Shown one piece after another: positions 8,953 to 29,143 of a DNA stretch of 30,370 nucleotides. How positions within the stretch are numbered: the stretch's first letter is position 1; each line of letters begins with the position of its first letter. The notes below the pieces were generated by a model. The model worked only from the letters and a program-made list of their open reading frames with translations, was not told the origin of the DNA and did no database searches. Position numbers and translations under genes: made by a program. Source of the DNA: a virus; the IMG/VR virus record IMGVR_UViG_3300009428_000042, positions 1-30,370 of that record, one strand, 5' to 3'.

Positions 8953-8968
8953 TCTTTATTATAAATAT
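8953..8968 (-). promoter_or_regulatory. late-promoter-like AT motif before the 303-aa gene
   Basis: The minus strand reads ATATTTATAATAAAGA, identical over all 16 bases to the element upstream of gp25 at 20061-20076. It ends 18 bases before the ATG. The repeat of the same sequence before two separate structural genes suggests a late promoter element of this phage. The -10 position and the sigma factor are inferred. Confidence 0.5.
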
Positions 8969-20060: not shown

Positions 20061-20076
20061 TCTTTATTATAAATAT
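20061..20076 (-). promoter_or_regulatory. late-promoter-like AT motif before gp25
   Basis: The minus strand reads ATATTTATAATAAAGA, identical to the element before the 303-aa gene at 8953-8968. It lies 10 bases upstream of the gp25 ATG and downstream of a strong terminator, so transcription of the structural block must begin near here or read through. That makes a promoter role plausible. Confidence 0.5.
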
Positions 20077-25087: not shown

Positions 25088-25115
25088 TTTATAAAACTTG
25101 TATTAAATAAATATC

Positions 25116-27960: not shown

Positions 27961-28899
27961 TTAGAATGGTAAGTCGTCATCCTCATCCTCAACATTAGTT
28001 GTCGGAGCTGGAGTTACTACTTCTACCACTGGTACAGTTGGGACTACTTTTTCTGTAGTAAGTGTTAAGTCCTTAAAATCAGACGCAGTACCCATTGTTA
28101 ATTCAGAATCATCATCCTCGGTCCGTGAAGATGTTTCAATAGCGGCAGCATCAAGGCTACTCTTAGATACCCACTTATCATTCTCTTTGCTCCATGTCGG
28201 GACTTCACCAGATACTACAATCTTTAAGTAGTTATAATCTCTAAGACTATAAACATCTCTCCATGTTCTAGTGTCGTTAGCCCATACTGAAGCCTCGTTA
28301 TCATCCTCACTTAATGGTGTTGATTCTAATGGGTAAGCTACTGATTGAACTATTGGAACTTTAAATTGATTTCTTGCAATATTTAAAATTAAATCTCTAC
28401 CTGATTGCGGGTCTGTAATGTCATGCTTGACAGCTTTAACTGCTCCCATTATTTTATCTAGTGTTCCACCGCCATCCCATGCGTGATTAAATCTCCAGAA
28501 TTTTACACCTTCTTTTTCATTACCTCTTTCAATAACCTTAAGGATGTACATTTTTCTAGCTGAATACTTCTTTGCTAATTCCTTGTCAGCTTCTTTACCA
28601 GTCGCCCTTAATGTTTGATTAACTTCGCAGAACGGACACTCAGTATCTTCTTCGTGTTTAAGACATGGAAACGTTTTCCATGCACCATCAACTTGTGCTT
28701 TGTGTCCCCATAAAGTATCCCAGAATACGTTTTGACCTTCTTTAGGTGGTAGGATTCTTATTACCTTTGTTGTTGAATTTTCGTTAGGCTGTAAAAAAGT
28801 ACTAAAATAGTTAGATAACTCGTACTTCTTTATTTCTGTTTTTTTTTCGGCTTGCTGAGAGTCAGCGTAACCTTTCATCATGTTTTCAAATTTGTTCAT
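27961..28899 (-). CDS. gp32: single-stranded DNA-binding protein, gp32-like
   Basis: This 312-aa protein has the layout of T4 gp32 (301 aa). It coats ssDNA and coordinates helicase, recombinase and polymerase. A basic N-terminal segment is followed by the core with a zinc site, C79-x2-H82-x5-C88-x2-C91 (FPCLKHEEDTECPFC), comparable to the His-Cys3 site of gp32. Aromatic-rich stretches (FWDTLWGHKAQ, KFWRFNHAWDGG) could stack on DNA. The acidic C-terminus ends DDDLPF, which looks like the protein-docking tip of bacterial SSB proteins. The gene has its own promoter, structured leader and terminator. That fits a separately controlled, highly expressed protein; T4 gp32 is autoregulated through its leader. 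Confidence 0.93.
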   Translation of the reverse strand: MNKFENMMKGYADSQQAEKKTEIKKYELSNYFSTFLQPNENSTTKVIRILPPKEGQNVFWDTLWGHKAQVDGAWKTFPCLKHEEDTECPFCEVNQTLRATGKEADKELAKKYSARKMYILKVIERGNEKEGVKFWRFNHAWDGGGTLDKIMGAVKAVKHDITDPQSGRDLILNIARNQFKVPIVQSVAYPLESTPLSEDDNEASVWANDTRTWRDVYSLRDYNYLKIVVSGEVPTWSKENDKWVSKSSLDAAAIETSSRTEDDDSELTMGTASDFKDLTLTTEKVVPTVPVVEVVTPAPTTNVEDEDDDLPF

Positions 28900-28944
28900 A
28901 ATTTGCTTTTGTTTTTTTTTAAATTAGTTTATATTATTGCTATA

Positions 28945-28996
28945 GTCTTACAGGTAACCCCTGCTTATATAAATATCGGTAAATAAGCAGAAAGAC
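28945..28996 (-). promoter_or_regulatory. structured 5' leader of the gp32-like mRNA
   Basis: In the minus-strand transcript CTGCTTAT (28983-28990) pairs perfectly with ATAAGCAG (28961-28968) across a 14-base loop. An outer pairing GTCTT/AAGAC (28992-28996 with 28945-28949) could close it. No U-run follows, so it is not a terminator. T4 gene 32 is autoregulated by gp32 binding a pseudoknot in its own leader. An analogous operator here is a hypothesis. Confidence 0.45.
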
Positions 28997-29041
28997 CAAT
29001 AATTAGTTCTTTTTTTTAAACTTTTTAACCACCCTGTTACA

Positions 29042-29072
29042 CAAATATATGAGTAAATTAAGTGTAGTGCAA
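29042..29072 (-). promoter_or_regulatory. Bacteroidetes-type housekeeping promoter for the gp32-like gene
   Basis: The minus strand has TTG at 29072-29070, a 20-base spacer, and TATATTTG at 29049-29042. This is an exact match to the Bacteroidetes sigma-A pattern TTG-N(17-23)-TAnnTTTG. It lies directly after the preceding terminator and would give a leader of about 135 bases before the ATG at 28899. Confidence 0.7.
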
Positions 29073-29082
29073 TAGTTAAGGA

Positions 29083-29118
29083 CAAAAAAAATGAGGTAAT
29101 TGTTATAACTACCTCATT
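29083..29118 (-). terminator. intrinsic terminator after the acidic 244-aa gene
   Basis: On the minus strand AATGAGGTA pairs perfectly with TACCTCATT around an 11-base loop and is followed by eight U. It lies 26 bases beyond the stop of the 244-aa gene and separates it from the gp32 transcript. Confidence 0.9.
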
Positions 29119-29143
29119 ATTAATTAATTAATTTTAATTTTAT

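Follow-up and report, generated by a model that had tools for sequence, protein, structure and literature searches.

The window analysed here covers 30,370 bases of a virus record, a fragment in which all credible genes lie on the minus strand. One of them encodes a gp32-like single-stranded DNA-binding protein (PF08804, E 3.2e-13; phrog_1192, E 2e-15), and co-oriented genes for a UvsX-like protein, an exonuclease, a helicase and ribonucleotide reductase lie behind it. Upstream, the gap 28900-29143, at 244 nt the largest in the window, separates gp32 from a gene for an acidic protein; an acidic ORF resembling it also lies 5' of gp32 in two related loci, L003 and L004. In the direction of transcription this gap presents a terminator-like hairpin, a TTG, 20 nt, TATATTTG (the last three forming the element called P1), and then a second element, P2. 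The features are as follows.

27961..28899, minus strand: gene for the gp32-like single-stranded DNA-binding protein
28951..28963, minus strand: short hairpin or dyad, CAGGGGTTACCTG, where a P2 transcript would be expected to begin
28969..28976, minus strand: P2, ATATTTAT (GATATTTATATA), candidate late-class promoter 77 nt upstream of the gp32 ATG; identical in the window, L003 and L011
29042..29049, minus strand: P1 -7 element, TATATTTG; TA..TTTG present at all 11 distinct P1 sites
29070..29072, minus strand: P1 -33 element, TTG (context TATTGCACT); each of the 11 distinct P1 sites has the TTG
29090..29118, minus strand: terminator-like hairpin closing the upstream transcript, 17 nt ahead of P1
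29144..29878, minus strand: upstream gene from the ORF list, 244 residues, acidic, no PHROG match and no function assigned

The window was extended with a 71,552-base contig (G001), which matches it across about 29.9 kb and continues beyond. The joined working contig is 72,023 nt long, and its gene calls are our own ORF calls.

The P1 element and its conservation

P1 occupies positions 29072-29042 of the minus strand, 173 nt upstream of the gp32 gene. The earlier note had described it as an exact Bacteroidetes -33/-7 promoter. The TTG, the N20 spacing and TATATTTG are indeed as described, on the minus strand, but "exact" is slightly generous: the -33 region reads ATTG and thus contains the TTG, with three of the four letters of the published TTTG. 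The -7 element matches both TANNTTTG and the refined form TAHHTTTG. Among the 11 distinct P1 sites the spacing is always N20; after the TTG, ten have C at position 4 and ten have A at position 5. The placement of P1 in the largest gap, behind a terminator, was borne out, and the junction recurs: a hairpin terminator (29118-29090 in the window) stands 2-32 nt ahead of P1 in 11 of 12 loci, with stems of differing sequence. The exception is the P1 locus of phage Mel-JY01, where no terminator hairpin was detected.

The promoter rule for Flavobacterium johnsoniae (PMC6847099) is TTTG / TAHHTTTG with 4-5 nt to the start, a leader averaging 33 nt and a weakly evident -33 region. Under this rule, transcription from P1 would start near 29037 and the leader would be about 138 nt long. 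Compared with the sigma-ABfr promoters described there, P1 shares the -7 TATATTTG, the preceding TTG and the lack of a Shine-Dalgarno sequence downstream. The P1 family differs from them in its fixed N20, its conserved -33 (mostly TTGCA) and its leader of about 138 nt, whereas the host promoters have a weak -33 and, on average, a 33-nt leader.

The string alone proves little, since TTG-N19..21-TAnnTTTG has further matches inside genes of the window: there are five matches on the minus strand and two on the plus strand, P1 being the sole intergenic one. In the window's 300 nt upstream of gp32, TTG-N20-TAnnTTTG has a probability of 0.005 under dinucleotide shuffling. Sigma-70-like matches are also present in this AT-rich region (55 vs 42.7 in shuffles). 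Two scans of viral contigs for gp32 yielded 3 loci and 22 loci. Once duplicates had been discarded and the window, Mel-JY01 and the Flavobacterium phage immuto included, the set comprised 15 distinct upstream regions. TTG-N20-TAnnTTTG occurs within 300 nt in 12 of these 15, vs 0.07 expected from dinucleotide shuffles, the regions being related to each other and so not independent draws. It is absent from the upstream regions of L028 and L029, whose gp32 is 28-30% identical, and of immuto. The P1 position itself is occupied in 11 of the 15; in L022 the match sits at a second promoter, and the P1 position carries TATATTTG without a TTG. Between the window, L003 and L011, none of the seven letters of the -33 region is changed and the 13 letters starting with the -7 are identical, while the spacer differs at 9, 3 and 11 of 16 positions in the three pairwise comparisons; in the two nearest relatives up to 9 of the 16 spacer bases are unlike the window's. 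P1 is taken as real because these relatives keep the elements while the spacer has drifted.

The earlier note had proposed searching other early gaps for the same pattern. In the 72-kb extended contig, TTG-N19..21-TAnnTTTG occurs on the gene strand 8 times in 5,368 gap nt vs 6 times in 66,655 coding nt, a density about 17 times higher in gaps than in genes, and on the opposite strand 0 times in gaps and 4 times in coding sequence. Downstream of the gap sites lie gp32, a gene resembling a primase (9.7e-34 to the immuto primase by blastp), small unknown genes, the tmRNA gene and an FKBP-like gene; the gap of the site at 47478 of the working contig possibly hides an uncalled ORF. The tmRNA gene of G001 (locus L030, 7646-8011, minus strand; Rfam RF00023, 55 bits) was missed by ARAGORN. 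A P1-type promoter lies just 5' of it, and the FKBP-like gene behind it has its own.

The fixed pattern was also counted against a backward control, both strands summed, in all 19 records, and the support is strong in some members of the group and weak in others. An excess of motif over control is found in G001 (8/3), G003 (30/8), G005 (7/1) and Mel-JY01 (28/8); further relatives give 3/0 (G006, G008 and G009) and 3/1 (G010). Little or no excess is seen in G002 (27/15), G004 (10/6), LR756508 (15/7) and G007 (2/2), and immuto gives 3/4. Phages of other hosts give 2/4 (T4), 3/6 (44RR), 4/9 (Aeromonas phage 65), 5/2 (Syn1), 3/3 (ACG-2014d) and 1/1 (Moby).

A second motif class and a gp55-like protein

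P2, which the earlier note did not contain, reads GATATTTATA in the window and lies 65 nt downstream of P1. The string GATATTTATATA (from 28977 on) is common to the window, L003 and L011 at this same distance from P1. In the more distant L004, L018, L021, L022 and L024, a second TTGAC..TATATTTG promoter stands in place of P2.

The motif was first spotted by eye in the listed gaps and then pursued by k-mer counts. It belongs to a class, (A)TATTTAT(A/T), that is over-represented in gaps and usually lies 12-30 nt ahead of start codons. The top 9-mer of the contig gaps, GATATTTAT, occurs in 8 gaps vs 0.24 expected and not at all on the opposite strand. On the gene strand of the contig, ATATTTAT is found 14 times in gaps and 7 times in genes (4 and 9 on the other strand); in G003 it occupies 41 of 90 gene-oriented gaps vs 6.3 expected, with 10 reversed, and in immuto there are 20 gap and 11 coding copies vs 1 and 3. 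Within 50 nt of starts, sense and reverse counts of TATTTAT(A/T) are 31/12 in immuto and, in G003, 36/4 for minus-strand and 7/8 for plus-strand genes. The loose form TATTTAT(A/T) gives no clear enrichment in the contig (14 sense vs 10 reverse) or in Mel-JY01 (15 vs 10). Besides P2, copies in the window include the following.

25107..25114, minus strand: ATATTTAT element, 27 nt upstream of the ATG of the DnaB-like helicase gene
20069..20076, minus strand: ATATTTAT element, 25 nt upstream of the gp25-like baseplate wedge gene (20051-19662), behind a terminator at 20146-20112
8961..8968, minus strand: ATATTTAT element, 33 nt upstream of a 303-residue gene (8935-8024; no PHROG match)

The late promoters of T4 have the consensus TATAAATA. 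P2 does not carry it on the sense strand, where it reads ATATTTAT, and on the gene strand of the contig TATAAATA occurs twice in gaps and 10 times in genes. A T4-type late promoter TATAAATA on the opposite strand was considered and rejected, since transcription from it would run away from all genes and, in some gaps, head back into the terminator. The P2 class nevertheless resembles T4 late promoters in being short, in having no evident -35 element and in lying close to start codons; both kinds stand ahead of baseplate and other structural genes, and relatives carrying the P2 class encode a gp55-like protein. It differs in that a TATTTATA-type core replaces TATAAATA. By this analogy the class looks like the late promoter of a T4-like system with a sequence unlike T4's own, whereas T4 relatives of several other hosts are described in PMC2988020 as keeping highly similar late consensus sequences.

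The late sigma factor would be supplied by the phage. The gp55 family (phrog_234) matches one ORF of G002 (E 3.4e-4) and one of immuto (immuto26A_153, E 0.008); the same search gave no match in G003, G004, G005, G006 or G001, the last being a fragment. With the G002 protein as query, relatives were found in G003, G004 and immuto, so that four large relatives carry a candidate, and a scan of viral contigs found 173 stretches encoding relatives. Those located, all annotated as hypothetical or unannotated, include:

L040, 1276-2049: gp55-like candidate
L044, 1492-2220: gp55-like candidate
L045, 1492-2220: gp55-like candidate
L039, 1489-2187: gp55-like candidate
L053, 8764-9534: gp55-like candidate
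L054, 295-1005: gp55-like candidate

Aligned with hhalign to six gp55 proteins, the candidate scored 94.6% (E 7e-8) with a diverse set and 43% (E 2.5e-4) with a narrow one, and a PDB sequence search with its profile matched only gp55 (7d7c, E 0.049). A Pfam search of the candidates found nothing, and PHROG scans of eight contig proteins revealed no sigma factor. The structure model was weak (pTM 0.41) and was left out as support; Foldseek with it gave no match at E <= 0.001, with sigma chains among the top ranks. The profile comparisons make a gp55-type sigma the likely identity of the candidate, short of proof.

A competing reading is that the P2 class is no promoter and instead acts within the leader of the mRNA, as an element for translation or RNA processing (AUAUUUAU). 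In its favour, the distance to start codons is narrow and often 11-13 nt, leaving almost no leader. Against it, several copies lie directly behind terminators, so that transcription has to start anew there, and several large relatives encode the gp55-like candidate, so that a leader signal appears unlikely, though it keeps appreciable weight. Several ATATTTAT copies in G003 and immuto lie 11-13 nt ahead of the ATG and, if they are promoters, would give nearly leaderless late mRNAs.

Taking P2 as a late promoter, and with the -13/-12 numbering of T4 (PMC2988020) as a guide, its transcript would start near 28962, at the dyad 28963-28951. In L011 this dyad reads CAAGTTTAACTTG, one compensatory pair away from CAGGGGTTACCTG. 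Folding of the leader predicts a 5-bp hairpin followed by an unstructured stretch, with an energy no better than shuffles, and we therefore do not claim a structured riboregulator; an Rfam scan of the window gave no match, the gp32 leader corresponding to no known RNA family. The arrangement recalls the translational operator of T4 gene 32, for which PMC535899 describes a folded 5' element followed by an unstructured A/U-rich leader. There, the 5' element is a pseudoknot and the leader contains UUAAA, whereas a 5-bp hairpin is predicted here, folding found no pseudoknot in the window's gp32 leader, and the dyad is absent from more distant relatives. The conserved leader string occurs once in the window and, among viral contigs, solely in the G001 and L003 contigs. 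The dyad is a possible site of gp32 autoregulation.

Which polymerase reads P1, and in which host

By nrdA, the Flavobacterium immuto phages are the closest annotated isolates (59% identity); they also provide the sole matches of the UvsX-like protein and are among the best for the baseplate wedge protein. A strict Shine-Dalgarno string is found ahead of 0/56 genes in the contig, 2/158 in immuto, 6/181 in Mel-JY01 and 5/26 in a stretch of T4; with a looser set the figures are 2/56, 3/157, 35/181 and 9/25. For the FKBP of the contig, the best three cellular relatives are from Bacteroidota and the others are mixed (45 loci). Isolates, absent Shine-Dalgarno sequences and FKBP relatives together favour Bacteroidota as the host phylum, without proving it. 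The earlier note had counted the promoter as independent evidence for the phylum; the phylum has gained support from the isolates and the Shine-Dalgarno counts, while the motif itself speaks of the host RNA polymerase and assigns no host.

Mel-JY01 (PP395634.1, loci L050-L053) is labelled a phage of Microcystis elabens, a cyanobacterium. It carries intergenic TTG-N19..21-TAnnTTTG at 20 plus-strand and 4 minus-strand positions (e.g. 53695, 63040, 68717, 143674), one of them preceding an ssb-like gene, and it has relatives among Flavobacterium phages. A search of open-licence papers found none naming Mel-JY01. Because its promoters are of the Bacteroidota type, the host label is doubtful, and the phage may in fact infect a member of the Bacteroidota present in the culture.

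In immuto, no intergenic gene-strand TTG-N19..21-TAnnTTTG was found, and the ssb gap holds just TTG-N20-TATATTAT, and no clear copy of the promoters that form an array elsewhere in that genome. This array (MW353175.1, 22-76 kb), which lies among the small ORFs of this T4-like phage of Flavobacterium, consists of 20 similar TTG-N20-TATATTTAG promoters, each preceding a gene; the TTG lies exactly 20 nt upstream in 20 of 20 intergenic sites, and 19 of the 20 stand 30-39 nt ahead of an ATG by our own gene calls, most with GTAT behind. Like P1, it places TTG exactly 20 nt ahead of a TATATTT core; unlike P1, its -7 ends in TTTAG rather than TTTG. The array promoter is a close variant of the TTG-N20-TAnnTTTG promoter.

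This rigidity could mean that P1 is read by a phage-encoded or phage-modified polymerase, the likeness to host promoters being mimicry with an N20 that these lack. The exact spacing in all 20 immuto sites, the departure of immuto from the host -7 and the weakly evident -33 of F. johnsoniae (PMC6847099) fit such a polymerase, but the -7 matches TAHHTTTG in most members and the one sigma candidate detected resembles gp55, a late-type sigma in T4; this makes the reading improbable. That an AT-rich gap spells a loose consensus by chance, P1 having no function, is a reading that the in-gene matches and the three-letter -33 would favour, yet the 12 of 15 upstream regions, the elements kept identical beside a diverged spacer and the gap enrichment make it very improbable indeed.

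P1 is thus very probably a host sigma-A promoter of the Bacteroidota type, as the earlier note had proposed, a reading well supported by the observed conservation, gap enrichment and terminator-promoter junction. As P1 fits the F. johnsoniae rule and the host evidence points the same way, direct transcription of gp32 by host RNA polymerase is likely.

Proposed early and late transcription of gp32

We infer the following course, including its start sites, timing, sigma usage and the part played by P2. Upon infection, unmodified host RNA polymerase would bind the TTG and TATATTTG, 20 nt apart, and transcribe from about 29037 through gp32 and the recombination and replication genes (UvsX-like, exonuclease, helicase, ribonucleotide reductase), which would make the expression of gp32 early; the hairpin ahead of P1 would insulate it from the upstream unit. 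Later, host polymerase equipped with the phage's gp55-like late sigma would use P2 (GATATTTATA) to produce a further, shorter gp32 transcript. We hold this joint reading, with P1 as the host sigma-A promoter for gp32 and the genes behind it and P2 adding a late-sigma transcript, with considerable confidence.

A broader proposal stands at about even chances. T4-like phages of Bacteroidota would run a two-class programme, with an array in the host's own promoter style, TTG-N20-TATATTT(G/AG), and late (A)TATTTAT(A/T) promoters read on Bacteroidota polymerase by a divergent gp55-type sigma, unlike the TATAAATA that T4 relatives keep in other hosts. Both classes would serve gp32 in the window's lineage; a transcript from the late start would have a leader of about 63 nt beginning with the hairpin, and gp32 could bind this leader, limiting its own synthesis.

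A search of open-licence papers found none on the promoters of Bacteroidota T4-like phages. P1 in itself is nothing unusual, being a host-type promoter that now has good support; more interest attaches to the second class of motif and the sigma candidate that goes with it. A P1-type promoter lets a host be read at the level of phylum from phage DNA without an isolate, and one host label in the databases, that of Mel-JY01, is already in doubt because of it. The P1/P2 pair, together with the sigma candidate, offers a tractable route to studying a T4-style early-to-late switch where the polymerase uses another kind of primary sigma.
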